From Spirochaetes bacterium ADurb.Bin218 (GTDB lineage: Bacteria > Spirochaetota > UBA4802 > UBA5550): 44,803 bases of DNA. Of the stretch, positions 14,921 to 36,254 are shown in pieces (the first letter of the stretch is position 1; every line of letters starts with the position of its first letter). Position numbers and translations under genes: made by a program. A model generated the notes under the pieces. That model ran no database searches. It worked only from the letters and a program-made list of their open reading frames with translations, and was not told where the DNA came from. The DNA lies in the NCBI GenBank assembly GCA_002069965.1, contig MWCI01000023.1:1-44803 (forward strand). Reading direction: 5' to 3'.

Positions 14921-16513
14921 CTAACCTTCGTTACTATAAAAAGGAGGGTATCCTGTAACTTCTCTTATCTCTTCATAAAGAGGCTTAAGTTTATTATAAA
15001 GCTTCATATATACGTTTTCAAAAAGATCTCCATAGAGTTTGCTATTTTTCTTGTCTGGCTCAAAAATATCAGCAACCCTTGTCATTGACTGGACAGCGCT
15101 TTTAAAATCAGAGAAGACCTTGATTCCAACTGCTGCATCAATTGCTGCTCCAAGGGCAGAGGTTTCATAAGTATGAGGCCTTTCTGCAGGAAGATTAAAA
15201 ATATCTGCAGTAAGCTGCATTGCACATCTGCTCTGGGAGCCACCACCAGATACTCTTAGCTTTTCAATTTTTATTTTATTGCGCTTTTCTGTGCGAATTG
15301 CTCCTTCTTTAAGGGCATAAGAGAGGCCTTCAAGAATTGCTCTGTAAACATGAGCCTTTGTATGGACATCGCCAAAGCCAATTATAGCTCCCTTAGCCTC
15401 AGGCCCTGGTACTTTAACACCTGGGGACCAGAAAGGCTGAAGCATAAGCCCCATAGAACCAGGGGGAACACAACAGGCCATATCATCAAGAAGCACCTCA
15501 ACTGGAATGCACTTTTTCTGCGCCAGGACCATCTCATTGTGGGCAAATTCATTTTTAAACCAGCTTACCATCCAATAGCCGCGATAAATCATTACCTCTG
15601 TATTGTAAGCGCCTGGCACTGCACTGGGATAAGGAGGCAAAAATGGAATTATTTCAACATACTTGCTATTTGTTGTTTCAATTGTTGCAGTTGTGCCAAA
15701 GCTCAAGCATGCTATATCAGGGCTCAAACATCCAGATCCCAAGACCTCACAGGCCTTATCAGCTGCTGCTGCAATAACAGGAAGCCCTTCAGGAATACCT
15801 GTCTCTTTTGATGCCTTCTTAGAAATAGCCCCAAGGAATTCTGAGGGTTTTACAAGAGTTGCCAACCTATCCCTTGTAATGTAAGGGAACATCTTCCATT
15901 TAAAATCACTATCCTTTGACCACTCTTGTTTTTTAAAATCAAAGGGCACATAGCCCACCTGATTCCCTGTAGAGTCTGTAAACTCCCCTGTCAATTTATA
16001 GGTAAAATATCCAGATAAAAATAAAAATTTATAGGTCCTGTCCCATATCTCAGGTTGATTTTGAGCTATCCAGTTTGCCTCACACTCCATGATTGTATAA
16101 ATTGCAGTGTCATACATGTTTATTGCTTTGAGAATATATTTAAGATATGCAGGAGGCCAATTCTCTGCCTTTGCCTTTCTTCTATCCAGCCATATAATTG
16201 CTGGTCTCAAAGGCTTCCCATCTTTATCGAGATTTATCATGGTGTTTCTCTGAGTCGTAAGAGAAACAGCCTTTATTGAATCCTTTTGTATAGACTTATC
16301 AGAAAAGAGTTTTTTTGAGGTTGCACATAAAGTCTTCCAGAAATAATCTGGATTTTGCTCTGCCCAGCCTAGTTGGACAGAAAAATATGGTTCTATTTCT
16401 GTTTTTACAATTTTTTTTATGTTACCATTAAAATCAATAAGAGCAGCTCTTATAGACTGAGTCCCTGCATCAATAGCAAGAACACAGTCCTCCCATGTAT
16501 TTTTTTTTGCCAT
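14921..16513 (-). CDS. FGGY-family carbohydrate kinase
   Basis: A 530-residue ATP-dependent kinase of the glycerol/xylulose/gluconate kinase family. FGGY_N spans about residues 10-255 (AIDAGTQSIRAALIDFNG at the phosphate-1 site; IIWLDRRK) and FGGY_C about 270-480 (LSFGTTATIETT; KLRVSGGGSQS at the ATP site). The catalytic-base region AAAADKACEVLGSG keeps its Asp. Length is normal, but the substrate cannot be read: the sugar-contact regions do not match glycerol kinase or xylulokinase well enough for me to choose. It is the last gene of an operon with an XPB helicase, a glycosidase-like protein and a STAS protein; RBS GGAG precedes ATG 16513. Confidence 0.88.
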   Translation of the reverse strand: MAKKNTWEDCVLAIDAGTQSIRAALIDFNGNIKKIVKTEIEPYFSVQLGWAEQNPDYFWKTLCATSKKLFSDKSIQKDSIKAVSLTTQRNTMINLDKDGKPLRPAIIWLDRRKAKAENWPPAYLKYILKAINMYDTAIYTIMECEANWIAQNQPEIWDRTYKFLFLSGYFTYKLTGEFTDSTGNQVGYVPFDFKKQEWSKDSDFKWKMFPYITRDRLATLVKPSEFLGAISKKASKETGIPEGLPVIAAAADKACEVLGSGCLSPDIACLSFGTTATIETTNSKYVEIIPFLPPYPSAVPGAYNTEVMIYRGYWMVSWFKNEFAHNEMVLAQKKCIPVEVLLDDMACCVPPGSMGLMLQPFWSPGVKVPGPEAKGAIIGFGDVHTKAHVYRAILEGLSYALKEGAIRTEKRNKIKIEKLRVSGGGSQSRCAMQLTADIFNLPAERPHTYETSALGAAIDAAVGIKVFSDFKSAVQSMTRVADIFEPDKKNSKLYGDLFENVYMKLYNKLKPLYEEIREVTGYPPFYSNEG

Positions 16514-30562: not shown

Positions 30563-31774
30563 CTACTGGCTCATCCCTGCTATTGCCCCTGTGCTCCAGG
30601 CAAACTGAAGATTAAATCCACCACTGTCTCCATCGATATCCAGGATCTCCCCTGTAAGATATAAGTTCTTTATAATCCTTGATTCCATTGTTAGAGGGTT
30701 AACCTCATCAACTGCAACTCCCCCTGCAGCAACAACAGCCTCATCAAAACCTCGGCATTTTCCCACTGGTGCAATAAAGCCCTTCAGCAGCTGTGCAATT
30801 TTTTGAAGATCCTTAGTTACCTCAAAATTTTTATTTAACGGATCAAAGCCACCGCAGGCAAGCAATGTATCTGGCATCCTCTCCTTTAATATCCCAAGGA
30901 GTGAAAATCCAATTGATTTCTGGGGATCTGCAGTAACCACCGCCAACAGAGATTGTAACTCCTCAACAGAAAGCTCAGGGAAAAAATCAAACTCAATGAA
31001 AGAGTGCTCTCCCTTAAGGCTAATCTCATTTACCCATCTGGAAATCTTCAAAGAGGCAGGTCCAGATATGCCATAGGCGGTAAAAAGAACCTCACCATAG
31101 GACTCAGCAATCGCCCTATTATCGTAAAGCACCCTTAATCTGCAATCCCATTTAATGCCCTGAAGTTTATGTAATGACTTTAGTTTAATATTTATTGGGG
31201 TTATAGAGGGGAATGGCTCAACAATACTATGTCCAAGGGATGCAACCAGGTCATAAACATTTTTTGCAGCTCCAAGTTGAGGATAGGCACAGCTTCCACA
31301 GGCAATTATAACAGAATCAAATACAAACTCTTCCATACCGGCTGTAATAACTTTAAAACCTGACCTGAGGGGGATAATTTTATCAATACGCCTATGGAGT
31401 TTTATATCCACAGAATTTTTTATTAGCTCATATTCAAAGAATTTAATAATTGTAGAGGATTGCAAAGAGGCAGGAAAAAGCTTTCCTTCTTCCTCTTCTA
31501 TAAAGGGCACACCTAAATCTCTAAAAAAATCTTCAGTTTGAAGAAGTCCAAATCTCTCAAAAACCTTTGCTACAAAATCCTTATTACCTCCATGATATCT
31601 ATCTGGAGATATATTTACATTAGAAATATTACATCTGCCATTCCCAGTGGCCAGTAACTTTCTTCCAATTTTTTTCTGCTTTTCGAAGATAGTAACATCA
31701 CAACTCCGTGAGGCAATAGATGCTGCCATTAGCCCAGATGCTCCTGCTCCAATAACTGCCACCTTCTTTTTCAT
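30563..31774 (-). CDS. HI0933-family FAD-dependent oxidoreductase (BaiN-like)
   Basis: A 403-residue cytoplasmic flavoprotein of the HI0933/YhiN/BaiN family (PF03486). The dinucleotide-binding motif VAVIGAGASGLMAA spans residues 5-18, followed by the family signature KIGRKLLATGNGRCNISN and, near the C-terminus, AAGGVAVDEVNPLTMESR and LTGEILDIDGDSGGFNLQ. Such proteins carry FAD; the physiological substrate is generally unknown, though BaiN acts on bile acids in gut clostridia. It is the last gene of a minus-strand group after a flippase-like protein and a lipoprotein. Confidence 0.9.
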   Translation of the reverse strand: MKKKVAVIGAGASGLMAASIASRSCDVTIFEKQKKIGRKLLATGNGRCNISNVNISPDRYHGGNKDFVAKVFERFGLLQTEDFFRDLGVPFIEEEEGKLFPASLQSSTIIKFFEYELIKNSVDIKLHRRIDKIIPLRSGFKVITAGMEEFVFDSVIIACGSCAYPQLGAAKNVYDLVASLGHSIVEPFPSITPINIKLKSLHKLQGIKWDCRLRVLYDNRAIAESYGEVLFTAYGISGPASLKISRWVNEISLKGEHSFIEFDFFPELSVEELQSLLAVVTADPQKSIGFSLLGILKERMPDTLLACGGFDPLNKNFEVTKDLQKIAQLLKGFIAPVGKCRGFDEAVVAAGGVAVDEVNPLTMESRIIKNLYLTGEILDIDGDSGGFNLQFAWSTGAIAGMSQ

Positions 31775-31794
31775 CGAAACTTATAAACAAACCT

Positions 31795-32319
31795 CTATTT
31801 TCTTATAGCCTGCCAGTTATCCTGTGTGCCAGCGTATCTATAATATCCACGAATAATTTTTCTGTCTTTTGATATAATACCATAAAATTCCTGAGTAAAA
31901 AAATCTGTTCCACCATATTTTATAAGCTCTTCCCTTGTTGTAATTGAGCGAATAAAGTAAATCTTATCCTCATTAACTCTCAAACTTTTTAGAGGCTGCG
32001 GAACTCCATTTCCCCAGTTATAAAATTTTATCGTTCCATAAAAAGCGCCATCTTTTATGCCAATAAATATTTCCCCTTTATAACCAGACATCGTTATTTC
32101 AAAAGATCCTGTATAATACTCTGGATGGGAAATACCGCTTCCATTAATATCATTTCCTTTTATAATCTCAGTAGTTTTTTCACGAGCTTTTTCATCTTCA
32201 CCCTTTTCTTCTGTTATAATTATATTCTCTTCATTTAAAGGTTTAGCGACATCTTTAAGGGGCCTGCCTGCACAGGAGCAAAGCAATAAAAATGATACTA
32301 TAACATACAAATATCTCAT
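31795..32319 (-). CDS. Predicted lipoprotein of unknown function
   Basis: A 174-residue predicted lipoprotein: signal YLYVIVSFLLL, lipobox LCSC, lipidated Cys16. Residues 20-65 are a charged linker (EEKGEDEKAREK). Residues 70-174 form a beta-rich domain with YTGSFEITMSGYKGEIFIGI and GTIKFYNWGNG, like a small beta barrel or jelly roll, ending in IIRGYYRYAGT. I do not recognise a family. ATG 32319 with AGGGG eight or so bases upstream. It lies between the flippase-like gene and the HI0933 gene, 21 and 20 bases from each, so all three are co-transcribed. Confidence 0.7.
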   Translation of the reverse strand: MRYLYVIVSFLLLCSCAGRPLKDVAKPLNEENIIITEEKGEDEKAREKTTEIIKGNDINGSGISHPEYYTGSFEITMSGYKGEIFIGIKDGAFYGTIKFYNWGNGVPQPLKSLRVNEDKIYFIRSITTREELIKYGGTDFFTQEFYGIISKDRKIIRGYYRYAGTQDNWQAIRK

Positions 32320-32340
32320 AGATTACCCCTAAATTCATTT

Positions 32341-33363
32341 TTACTTATTATCGTCTGGAGCAACCTCTTTCTTTATTAGCCCTGCGTAGAAAAGAAGCGC
32401 AATGCCTATGCCTGCCCATATAAAAGTTCTAAACCTCCTTATAATGCCAACAGAAAAGCCTATAACAGGATCATGACCGAGAAGCTTCAAAGCCAAGGAA
32501 TAAGAGCCTTCACTTGTGCCAATATTTGCAGGAACAAAAAATAGCGCACTTGTTGCAATAAATCCAAAGATATAGACAAATAAGGCCTCTGAGAGAGCAA
32601 GATTAGTTGCAGGAGCTATAAATTTTACTATTAGATATATTTCAAGAGAGCAGGAAATAATTATAGCAAAATAATGTATGGAAAGGGAAATATAAAACTG
32701 CCTCACAGTGTTATCGCTGCTGAATATATATGAAATCTCATCATCAGTTTTTTTAATTTTTTGCCTTAGAGAATCAGTGACAAATCTTGATTTTATAAAA
32801 GGCGGAAGCTTTTCTACCAGAGATATAATTATGCCTTTGTGATGATTTTTTAAGATGCGAACCATAAAGAGAAGAAGAATGATAAAAAAAAGCAAAAGTC
32901 CCAAAAAGGCAAGAAGGTTGTTGAAAAACTTATCTCTAAAAACAAAAAGACCAGCAAGCATCCCGGTCAAAACCATAAGAAGGTTTGAAACAGTATGAAT
33001 TAGTCGATCAAGGACAACTGTCGCAAGGCCAATTCTCAGAGGTAAAATATCCCTTACATATATAGCCTTTAATGGCTCACCTGCAACTGCACCCATAGCA
33101 TTTATCGATGATGTAGCATCACCGGCAATCCTTGCCAGAACAAATTTATAAAATTGATTATCAGGGATTGGATGATTCACCAGAACTCTCCAGGCATAGG
33201 CCAAAAAAATATTGCTAAAAATAAAAATTGAGCAAATTATAAAGAAACCACCCCATCCAATAGCTTTTATATATTGAAGAGTGGTGGTTATCCCCATCTT
33301 TTTGAACAAAAAAATTAAAATGGCAAAGCCCACTGCTAAAAAAATATATTTAGAGATTTTCAT
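32341..33363 (-). CDS. Flippase-like integral membrane protein (LPG synthase TM / UPF0104)
   Basis: A 340-residue protein with about eight membrane helices, of the lysylphosphatidylglycerol-synthase membrane-domain family (PF03706, YbhN-like). Hallmarks are the RIAGDATSSINAMGAVAGEP loop, FVPANIGTSEGSYSLAL (a conserved P-x-x-x-G-x-x-E/D-G pattern), and the basic C-terminal RRFRTFIWAGIG. Only the membrane domain is present: there is no aminoacyl-transferase domain, so it may move lipids or isoprenoid-linked sugars rather than synthesise a lipid. RBS AAAGG is ahead of ATG 33363. It follows the phosphatase gene by 24 bases. Confidence 0.85.
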   Translation of the reverse strand: MKISKYIFLAVGFAILIFLFKKMGITTTLQYIKAIGWGGFFIICSIFIFSNIFLAYAWRVLVNHPIPDNQFYKFVLARIAGDATSSINAMGAVAGEPLKAIYVRDILPLRIGLATVVLDRLIHTVSNLLMVLTGMLAGLFVFRDKFFNNLLAFLGLLLFFIILLLFMVRILKNHHKGIIISLVEKLPPFIKSRFVTDSLRQKIKKTDDEISYIFSSDNTVRQFYISLSIHYFAIIISCSLEIYLIVKFIAPATNLALSEALFVYIFGFIATSALFFVPANIGTSEGSYSLALKLLGHDPVIGFSVGIIRRFRTFIWAGIGIALLFYAGLIKKEVAPDDNK

Positions 33364-33387: not shown

Positions 33388-35109
33388 TCAAAGACGGATG
33401 AGAAGCAAGGTAAGATCATCTGCCAGGCTTAAATCCCTTGAAACTTCTCTTATCTCATTTCTAATTCTATTTAATATTATCTCTTCTGTGTCATCAAAAA
33501 ATTTTATAATAATATCTGCAAGCTTAAAAAAGCCTCTGTCAACATCAAGATCATCCCCACCAAGAGCCTCAGCAATTCCATCTGTAAAAAGAACAAGAAG
33601 ATCCCCATTATTATAGTAGATCTCCCTTTGCTCAAAAAAAACATCTTCAAATATTCCCAGAGGCTTGCCTGATGTCTTTAATCTTAAAATATCACCGCTT
33701 TTTTTTATAAGCATCTGATCATTATGGCCAGCAGAAGAAAACAAGATGCGCTTGTCATATTGATATATAATTGCACAAAAAGCAGTGGTAAACATTCCCA
33801 TCTCTGATTCTGCTATTATTAATTTGTTTGCCTGAGTAAAAAGATCAACTGGATTGCAGCAACTCTTTTGCTCCATCCTCAGGATATGCTTTACACTACC
33901 TGTATACAGCGCAGCAGGAATGCCTTTTCCAGCAACATCTGCTATCAAAAAGCCTGCAATATCATCGCGTATCCTATAATAATCAAAAAAATCACCACCA
34001 ACAACCCTTGCAGGTTCATAAAGAATTGATATAGCAATATCGCCTATATGCCTTGGTATTTTTGTTAAGTTTCTTCTTTGAATTTCAGAGGCAATTTTCA
34101 GTTCCTCTTCAATTTTTTTCCTCTTTTCTTCTCTTCTTCTTATAGAGTAGTTCTTATAAATCTCAGTAACGTGATTAATTATTGATAATAAAACATTTAT
34201 CTCAAAGCTGTCAAAGGTTCTGTGATTTTTTTTATCTGTAAGGTTAAGGACACCTACAATCTGCCCTTCAAAATACAGAGGTATAGATACAAATGAGTCT
34301 GAGCCATAACCTCTACCTTTTGACTTTATATGGTCAGGCAATTCTTCATTTATATTGCGGACATTCAGGATCTTCCCTGTTTTGAAAACATAAGCAGCAA
34401 CTGAATCATCATCTATTATAAGATTTTCCGGTAAGTCTTTTCCATAAGAAGCAAGCAATTCCAGATGTTTTTTTACTGTGTTATAGAAAACAAGAGATGC
34501 TCGTTCTACATTAAGAGATGAAGCAACTATAGCAAGAACTCTTTTAAAAAAATCTGCCTCACTTGAGGAAAACACTGCAGCGCTGGAGAGCTCATAAAGG
34601 GCATTGAGCTCTTCAATTCTCTTCTTCAGACTATTATAAAGAATTCTGTTTGTAATAGCTCCTGCTGCTTCCATTACAATAAGCTCAAGTATATTTTTAT
34701 CTTCTTCCGAATATAATTCATACGCTCTTGCAGTTAAAAGCACACCGGAAAATTTGTTATTGCTATACAGAGGAGTCCCCAGAATATTAAAGGATCTGCC
34801 GCTGGAAATGAGATTGTTTATAATCATACTATCTTTTGTTTGCAAAACCTCCTCTGCTATATATTGAAAATCAAAGAGATTAAGATTCTGCAAATATTCC
34901 TTTTCCTCTCTGGAAGTAAATCTTTCCATGATTAGCTTATTATTATTCAAAAGAAATATCATAGAAAAATCTGAATTGCAGAGAGATAGAGAAAGCCTCC
35001 CGAGTGATTCATATAGAAGATCAATATCCTTCTCAGGTGAAAGTTCATCATGGATGAAGGCTATCAGGTTTATATCTATTAAAGATTTTGGATCCAATTT
35101 ACTGTCCAA
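33388..35109 (-). CDS. GAF-GAF-SpoIIE PP2C-type serine phosphatase
   Basis: A 573-residue soluble signalling protein. Residues about 30-155 and 185-320 are two GAF domains. A short coiled linker (RRREEKRKKIEEELKIASE) leads to a SpoIIE/RsbU phosphatase at 350-573. The metal ligands are in VVGGDFFDYYRI, IADVAGKGIPAAL, LFTDGIAEAL and DDLTLLL, all intact, so it should be active. It likely dephosphorylates a STAS protein in response to a small ligand, possibly the one at 16527-16889. No ATG is suitable: TTG 35109 has AGAGAGG seven bases upstream, and that site is inside a hairpin (35117-35135). Confidence 0.88.
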   Translation of the reverse strand: MDSKLDPKSLIDINLIAFIHDELSPEKDIDLLYESLGRLSLSLCNSDFSMIFLLNNNKLIMERFTSREEKEYLQNLNLFDFQYIAEEVLQTKDSMIINNLISSGRSFNILGTPLYSNNKFSGVLLTARAYELYSEEDKNILELIVMEAAGAITNRILYNSLKKRIEELNALYELSSAAVFSSSEADFFKRVLAIVASSLNVERASLVFYNTVKKHLELLASYGKDLPENLIIDDDSVAAYVFKTGKILNVRNINEELPDHIKSKGRGYGSDSFVSIPLYFEGQIVGVLNLTDKKNHRTFDSFEINVLLSIINHVTEIYKNYSIRRREEKRKKIEEELKIASEIQRRNLTKIPRHIGDIAISILYEPARVVGGDFFDYYRIRDDIAGFLIADVAGKGIPAALYTGSVKHILRMEQKSCCNPVDLFTQANKLIIAESEMGMFTTAFCAIIYQYDKRILFSSAGHNDQMLIKKSGDILRLKTSGKPLGIFEDVFFEQREIYYNNGDLLVLFTDGIAEALGGDDLDVDRGFFKLADIIIKFFDDTEEIILNRIRNEIREVSRDLSLADDLTLLLIRL

Positions 35110-35229: not shown

Positions 35230-36180
35230 CTAAAAAATTGGCTTATAATCAAACCTATGGACAGCATCAATGAATCTTATGGTATGAGTCTTTTGTCTGA
35301 TTACTATTGAGTGAGTTTTTGCACCACCAGAAAAATACTTAACGCCGGGCAATAATACCCCATCTGTAACACCTGTTATAGCGATAAGTATATCATCTCC
35401 CTGAGCAAGATCTCTGGTTTTATATATTTTATCAGGATTTCCCATGCCAAGATTTGCAGCAACAGTTTTTTCAAAGTAATCATTATAAAAAACCCTGGCC
35501 TGCATCTCACCATCAAGACATTTTAATCCTGCAGCTGCAATAACCGCCTCCTTTGCGCCACCAATTCCCATCATCATGTCTATAGAAGAATTTTCTATGG
35601 CCGTAGATATTACAGCAGAAATATCACCATCTGTAATAAACTTTATTCTGGCACCTGTTTTTCTTATGTCCTCAACAAGTGGCCAATTGATTTCTCTGTC
35701 AAGAACGCAGACTGTTATGTCCTCTATATATTTCTTCTTTGCTCTGGCAACCCTCTTTATATTAATGGATGGAGATTCATTTATGTCAATCACTCCCTTT
35801 GCATCAGGACCCACTGCAATTTTGTTCATCATACAGGGAGGCACTCTCATAAAAGAACCACTGCTACCGAAGGCTATTACAGAAATTGCATTATTTCCTC
35901 CAAAGGCGCAGGTTCTCTTACCTTCAAGGGGCTTTGCTGCTATTTCTGCCTTTGGCCCCTCACCAGAGCCAGCCTTTTTACCATCATATATATAGAGATC
36001 CCTGTTGGATGCCCCTATAACTATCTCCCCATCAACATCTATCTTCTCAAGGAGTTTCCACATTGCCTCATCAGAAGCACGGTAACATAAATCATCATCT
36101 CCCTTACCCATATATCTGCTTGCATAGAGAGCAGAAAACTCCGTGAGCCTTGTGGCTTCAAGAGTAAGGTTTCTGTTCAT
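35230..36180 (-). CDS. GlpX-family (class II FBPase-like) protein with lost active-site residues
   Basis: A 316-residue protein aligned along its length to class II fructose-1,6-bisphosphatase GlpX: LEATRLTEFSALYASRYMGKGD, NNAISVIAFGSSGSF, KIAVGPDAKGVIDIN, DGDISAVISTAI, MMGIGGAKEAVIAAAGLK, GDDILIAITGVTDG. Compared with E. coli GlpX as I recall it, metal ligands Asp33, Glu57 and Asp85 correspond to Tyr33, Ala57 and Lys83 here, and Thr90 to Lys88; only Glu213 remains (Glu211). Two residues are deleted near 60. Activity as an ordinary FBPase is doubtful. ATG 36180 has a perfect GGAGG; an ATG at 36219 coincides with the expected transcription start and is rejected. Confidence 0.8.
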   Translation of the reverse strand: MNRNLTLEATRLTEFSALYASRYMGKGDDDLCYRASDEAMWKLLEKIDVDGEIVIGASNRDLYIYDGKKAGSGEGPKAEIAAKPLEGKRTCAFGGNNAISVIAFGSSGSFMRVPPCMMNKIAVGPDAKGVIDINESPSINIKRVARAKKKYIEDITVCVLDREINWPLVEDIRKTGARIKFITDGDISAVISTAIENSSIDMMMGIGGAKEAVIAAAGLKCLDGEMQARVFYNDYFEKTVAANLGMGNPDKIYKTRDLAQGDDILIAITGVTDGVLLPGVKYFSGGAKTHSIVIRQKTHTIRFIDAVHRFDYKPIF

Positions 36181-36225
36181 AAATCCTCCGGATTGTTCCT
36201 GATCAAGAAATGCGTCCATAAAGCC

Positions 36226-36254
36226 ATAATAGCTGTATCAAAAGATATTTTCAA
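36226..36254 (-). promoter_or_regulatory. Sigma-70-type promoter of the GlpX-family gene
   Basis: Minus strand: TTGAAA (36254-36249), a 17-base spacer, TATTAT (36231-36226), about 45 bases ahead of the ATG at 36180. Confidence 0.55.

Follow-up and report, generated by a model that had tools for sequence, protein, structure and literature searches.

What does a protein do that keeps the fold of the class II fructose-1,6-bisphosphatase (FBPase) GlpX along its whole length and has lost most of the residues with which that enzyme works? The question is raised by a gene in the contig analyzed here, a stretch of 44,803 nucleotides from Spirochaetes bacterium ADurb.Bin218 (henceforth the window), whose product we call pseudo-GlpX. 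A first-pass annotation, made from the letters of the DNA, had described it as either a regulatory pseudoenzyme or an enzyme with a changed reaction. The coordinates and strand that it gave for the open reading frame (35230-36180, minus strand; 316 aa, with the start codon ATG at 36180) are correct, as is the perfect Shine-Dalgarno sequence that it reported (GGAGG at 36189-36185). The claim that the gene has its own promoter fares less well: a TTGAAA-17-TATTAT sequence is indeed present, but such sites are no commoner around the gene than chance would have it (6 found versus 5.1 expected from shuffles). The Pfam model FBPase_glpX (PF03320) matches practically the entire protein, over residues 3-308 (E 1.4e-106; 356 bits against a cut-off of 27), and the NCBIfam glpX equivalog model TIGR00330 is also passed, at 269.5 bits versus a cut-off of 259.3. 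By sequence, the PDB entries closest to it are without exception class II FBPases, with E values of 1e-74 to 1e-57. The AlphaFold model has a mean pLDDT of 91.9, every one of its best structural matches in the PDB is a GlpX (E 1e-41 to 1e-34), and its TM-score to most GlpX structures is ~0.90-0.94 at identities of 33-44%. The retention of the fold from end to end, likewise proposed at the outset, is borne out by the whole-length Pfam match and by this model; that pseudo-GlpX is a full-length GlpX homolog with the predicted GlpX carbohydrate-phosphatase fold is not in doubt.

Table 1. Features of the pseudo-GlpX gene and its surroundings. Positions are those of the window; residues are numbered as in the window protein, with the E. 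coli GlpX equivalents in parentheses, and "order" denotes the aligned members of the Spirochaetota order described in the text.
Feature	Position	Strand	Evidence or conservation
Pseudo-GlpX coding sequence, 316 aa	35230..36180	-	PF03320 and TIGR00330 matches, AlphaFold model
Shine-Dalgarno GGAGG ahead of ATG 36180	36185..36189	-	Direct reading
Promoter-like TTGAAA-17-TATTAT, weak	36226..36254	-	10/12 matches
Tyr33 codon (Asp33, metal ligand)	36082..36084	-	D in 0/36 of the order; Y in 16/16 of the window's family
Ala57 codon (Glu57, metal ligand)	36010..36012	-	E in 1/36 order members by alignment
Lys83 codon (Asp85, metal ligand)	35932..35934	-	K in 16/16 of the window's family; D in 13/20 of other families
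Lys88 codon (Thr90, nucleophile)	35917..35919	-	T in 0/36; K in 15 and R in 1 of the window's family
Thr90 codon (Ile92), new threonine	35911..35913	-	36/36 of the order; <5% of canonical rows
Met117 codon (Tyr119, substrate site)	35830..35832	-	Y in 20/20 of other families, 6/16 of the window's family
Ile164-Asn165 codons (Arg166-His167, 6-phosphate pocket)	35686..35691	-	R-H in 20/20 of other families
Asp184-Gly185-Asp186 codons (DGD, furanose-ring binding), kept	35623..35631	-	Every order member with a complete stretch
Lys210-Glu211 codons (Pro212-Glu213)	35548..35553	-	K210 and E211 in 15/15 of the window's family
GAF + SpoIIE-type (PP2C) phosphatase, 573 aa, next downstream, context only	33388..35109	-	PF07228, 1.5e-36
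LPG-synthase-TM-like membrane protein, small protein, HI0933-like flavoprotein; context only	30563..33363	-	

In E. coli GlpX, the catalytic set comprises Asp33, Glu57, Asp85, Glu88, Thr90, Tyr119, Lys164, Arg166, Asp188, and Glu213, with one calcium held by Asp85/Glu213 and the second by Asp33/Glu57 (PMC5892879). In both M. tuberculosis and F. tularensis GlpX, alanine in place of the nucleophilic threonine leaves the enzyme inactive (PMC5892879, PMC10289334). We aligned the window protein with E. coli, Francisella, and Mycobacterium GlpX, the last two rows being taken from a PDB search; these two show the same picture as the E. coli row. At the positions of the catalytic set, the window protein has Tyr33, Ala57, Lys83, Glu86, Lys88, Met117, Arg162, Ile164, Asp186, and Glu211. 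Three of the four metal ligands are replaced (D33 by Y33, E57 by A57, and D85 by K83), with only E213 surviving as E211, and the nucleophile T90 has become K88, all three references agreeing with the first-pass annotation on these points. The loss of the GEGE motif likewise stands: the gaps at 57-66 are ambiguous, leaving the exact partners of E59 and D61 uncertain, but no alignment brings GEGE back. The reported two-residue deletion is seen against Francisella and Mycobacterium GlpX, whereas the E. coli protein has extra residues elsewhere as well. On the other hand, the extent of the damage had been understated, as the substrate site is additionally altered at three positions (Y119 to M117, R166 to I164, and H167 to N165). 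E. coli E88 is retained as E86, and two substrate contacts persist in Arg162 (E. coli Lys164) and Asp186 (E. coli Asp188). Judged by the established mechanism, the window protein would be unable to hydrolyze fructose-1,6-bisphosphate (FBP) through the known metal/threonine route, and it is with high confidence that we regard it as something other than an ordinary FBPase.

What had appeared to be a single odd gene turned out to be a trait of an entire order, one that arose in a common ancestor. PF03320 is present in 38 of the 46 genomes of one uncultivated Spirochaetota order, always as one copy per genome (split across two contigs in G012); none of these 38 genomes carries a catalytic GlpX, and PF03320 is found just once in the window's own genome, with no second GlpX. 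Among the 36 order sequences that were aligned, 16 from the window's family and 20 from other families, neither Asp33 nor Thr90 is kept in any, Glu57 is kept in 1, and Asp85 is kept in 13. All four residues are fully conserved in 98 homologs from outside the order, which were drawn from many phyla and other Spirochaetota and exclude L088, an apparent independent case from Chloroflexota, and the SGS subfamily (see below). Chance does not account for this contrast. The other fold residues and the DGD motif are conserved both within and outside the order. When losses at the catalytic positions were set against those at other conserved positions, a Fisher test returned p 0.065; the degenerate 57-70 loop, which adds to the noncatalytic losses, accounts for this value. 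In the tree, the copies from the order form one clade (support 100) within which each family is monophyletic, and the nearest group is the canonical Spirochaetota GlpX (support 86). The frames are open and free of stops in 38 genomes, and dN/dS of close pairs is 0.02-0.07, with more distant pairs being saturated in dS. These data show that the ancestor shared by at least six families came to have a GlpX with its fold retained but without the nucleophile and the greater part of the metal site, and that the protein has since descended vertically under strong purifying selection rather than decaying. With essential catalytic residues absent and purifying selection present, the protein answers to the description of a pseudoenzyme.

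Two further sets of unusual GlpX proteins were encountered in the course of this comparison. The Anaerolineae metagenome-assembled genome IP29b_bin.19 (Chloroflexota) carries two copies (L088/L276 and L277), both with Thr90 replaced by Ala; one additionally has Asp33 replaced by Glu and the other Asp85 by Asn. This pair is an apparent independent case of a seemingly dead GlpX. A second odd subfamily (L188-L207), from the Spirochaetota families f34 and f11, has intact metal ligands and an intact threonine nucleophile, with DGD changed to SGS and LEGT to LECT; in G124 and G164, it shares the genome with a canonical GlpX. This configuration suggests that the protein is an active phosphatase but acts on another substrate.

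Within the order, the site occurs in two states. All 20 members of the other families have the sugar-binding half intact (Tyr119, Arg166, His167, and DGD188) and likewise keep all four substrate contacts (Tyr119, Lys/Arg164, Arg166, and Asp188); in 19 of them, the Thr90 position is taken by a basic residue (Lys, Arg, or His). In the window's family, Tyr119 is kept in 6/16 and Arg166 in 7/16, both being lost in the window protein; Tyr33, Lys83, Asn165, and Lys210 are invariant there across the 15-16 members compared, and Lys88 is replaced once, by Arg. The residues that took the place of the catalytic ones vary among families (Y/N/S/F/L/G at 33, K/D/T/N/A at 85, K/H/R/G at 90, and E/H/Q at 213). 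Common to both states are the DGD motif and the Arg164 equivalent, which are kept in all order members with that stretch, and a threonine at E. coli position 92, which is found in 36/36 and is nearly absent from canonical GlpX.

If pseudo-GlpX does not carry out the FBPase reaction, another protein might be expected to do so. The first-pass annotation had advised a search for a second intact fbp or glpX gene: no second GlpX exists in the window's genome, but a class III FBPase gene does. This homolog (PF06874, 8.1e-113) is a 619-aa protein encoded at G000:C74:6516-8297, with the metallophosphatase motifs DPHG, GDVFDRGD, WGNHD, FGHTPVD, and INIDGGF all intact; the same member of a divergent class III subfamily is also seen as L216:2990-4846 on the minus strand. 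A class III homolog bearing DPHG, GDVFDRG, GNHD, and GHTP motifs occurs in 40 of the 46 order genomes, and none of the 38 that carry pseudo-GlpX is without one. Both genes are missing from six genomes (G006, G009, and the four of family f3), and two, G010 and G015, which are 72-73% complete, have class III alone. On the rpoB tree, in which f3 is basal, the double absences reduce to roughly two independent events; the pattern points the same way throughout, but the events are too few for significance, and the co-occurrence is only suggestive of a link between the two genes. The class III proteins of the order are divergent: the nearly complete ones score ~340-394 bits, whereas most of those from elsewhere in the phylum reach 835-1020, and NCBIfam gives the order's proteins no FBPase name. 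Having a class III gene does not entail losing GlpX, since G061 and G128, two Spirochaetota genomes from outside the order, hold it alongside canonical GlpX. Going by these sequences, it is plausible that FBPase catalysis passed to the divergent class III enzyme. Other candidates were considered as well. Class I FBPase is present in just 2/46 order genomes and so cannot be the general replacement, and the archaeal FBPase is found in 0/46. The sole phosphofructokinase match of the window's genome (G000:C38:22883-23806; L208) has GGDGT and PKTIDND motifs, which we take to be those of the ATP type; therefore, a PPi-dependent enzyme does not explain this genome. Other order members additionally carry a GGDD-form phosphofructokinase of ~405 aa. 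Genes of the inositol-monophosphatase type are common in the order, but their sequences do not allow FBPase activity to be assigned to them.

The gene neighborhood, too, was explored as a guide to function and was set aside. In the window's family, the GAF/SpoIIE phosphatase lies downstream of pseudo-GlpX in most genomes, membrane or small proteins are encoded there too, and the HI0933-like flavoprotein lies downstream in 16/16 contexts. In most other families, the gene lies between lipoprotein-like genes on one side and, on the other, genes that by eye resemble those of an aminotransferase and an NYN-type protein. The neighbors are thus conserved within families and different between them. 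In the contexts compared across families, the class III FBPase gene is never among the neighbors, nor is any carbohydrate enzyme; a context that is family specific and unrelated to sugars names no pathway. Members of the window's family (L152 and others) have a divergent upstream neighbor of ~745 aa (cluster 4), which by eye joins an ATP-grasp domain to an FMN-dependent alpha-hydroxyacid-dehydrogenase-like domain; in the window, prfA-prmC occupy its place. Elsewhere in the window, a 153-aa open reading frame (15350-15811, plus strand) lies wholly within a 530-aa one (14921-16513, minus strand) and is probably due to chance.

Taking these observations together, we lean toward the view that pseudo-GlpX is a pseudoenzyme kept as a regulator that binds sugar phosphates. 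We propose that, in this order, whose ancestral GlpX retained the fold but was left without the nucleophile and most metal ligands, class III FBPase would have taken over FBPase catalysis, with pseudo-GlpX acting by binding. The versions from the other families probably bind fructose-6-phosphate (F6P) or FBP without turnover, because Tyr119, Arg164, Arg166-His167, and DGD188 persist in them and a basic residue usually replaces Thr90. The bound protein might then report the sugar-phosphate level to a partner in gluconeogenesis, possibly the class III FBPase itself. In the window's subgroup, the ligand may differ, perhaps being another anion, or the role may lie mainly in protein-protein contacts, as its pocket has drifted (Met117, Ile164, and Asn165) and it has acquired the invariant Tyr/Lys/Asn set. 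We tentatively entertain a bolder scenario, which is possible rather than probable, wherein the window's family rebuilt the dead site from Tyr33, Lys83, Lys88, Asn165, and Lys210, together with the order-wide Thr90 (window numbering), into a new ligand-binding or active site that would accept another sugar phosphate or anion. The other families, binding F6P or FBP without turnover, would then be intermediates, so that a single order would preserve each stage on the way from enzyme through sensor to a new function.

Other explanations can be weighed against this sensor hypothesis. The strong selection on pseudo-GlpX, the near invariance of Tyr33, Lys83, Lys88 (R once), Asn165, and Lys210 in 15-16 members of the window's family, and the threonine at position 92 in 36/36, nearly absent from canonical GlpX, would all be in keeping with a changed reaction, in which the old site was rebuilt for a sugar phosphate or similar compound using the Lys/Tyr set or Thr92 beside the basic residue at 90. 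We nevertheless deem this unlikely: no canonical metal site is left, and the replacing residues differ between families, which fits a loss of catalysis better than a single new chemistry. The alternatives offered in the first-pass annotation are, as a class, well supported by the order-wide catalytic losses, the purifying selection, and the class III FBPase in the genome; between them, regulation is the likeliest reading, with a putative target, and a changed reaction is its alternative. It is also conceivable that pseudo-GlpX is a scaffold or subunit, for instance, of class III FBPase, with no small-molecule role. GlpX assembles as 222 tetramers, the fold-core residues are kept, selection acts across the whole protein, and class III FBPase shares its genomes. 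A pure scaffold, however, would have no need of the DGD motif and Arg164, which are kept order-wide, or of the full F6P pocket found in 20/20 of the other families, and we give this option rather little weight.

Residual FBPase activity through an altered metal site or another nucleophile is still harder to credit. The Glu88 and Glu213 equivalents remain in the window protein and the TIGR00330 equivalog cut-off is passed, but the nucleophile is gone from all order members along with metal ligands, a Thr-to-Ala change is by itself enough to inactivate two GlpX enzymes (PMC5892879, PMC10289334), and the same genome encodes an FBPase of another class. The lost catalytic residues might at first sight bring to mind a decaying pseudogene without function. 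This is refuted by the dN/dS of 0.02-0.07, far below 1, by the open frames in 38 genomes, and by retention across six families, and the chance of it is negligible.

A central gluconeogenic enzyme has thus apparently ceased to serve in catalysis throughout a bacterial order and yet is strongly selected. If it does sense F6P or FBP, pseudo-GlpX would count as a new regulatory protein in central carbon metabolism. Annotation based on NCBIfam would label it an active FBPase and leave the probable real FBPase without an FBPase name; therefore, metabolic models would assign the reaction to the wrong gene. A search of the open-access literature for "GlpX" and "pseudoenzyme," which most subscription journals lie outside, found no GlpX pseudoenzyme. 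With the class II FBPases of known structure (E. coli 3d1r, M. tuberculosis 6ayy/7txb, and F. tularensis 7js3/7txg), the window protein shares homology over its full length, the predicted fold, the DGD ring motif, and the equivalents of Arg164, Glu88, and Glu213. Unlike them, it is without the threonine nucleophile, Asp33, Glu57, and Asp85, and its subgroup also loses Tyr119 and Arg166. The class III FBPase of the same genome (PF06874, the B. subtilis Fbp type), which presumably catalyzes the former GlpX reaction, belongs to the calcineurin-like metallophosphatases; it is unrelated in sequence to pseudo-GlpX and is no homolog of it. Among pseudoenzymes derived from metabolic enzymes, Arabidopsis PDX1.2 (PMC6829848) offers a comparison. 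Unlike PDX1.2, which has active homologs in the same plant, pseudo-GlpX has no catalytic GlpX left beside it; like PDX1.2, it has lost its catalytic residues, conserved its fold, and been retained by selection.
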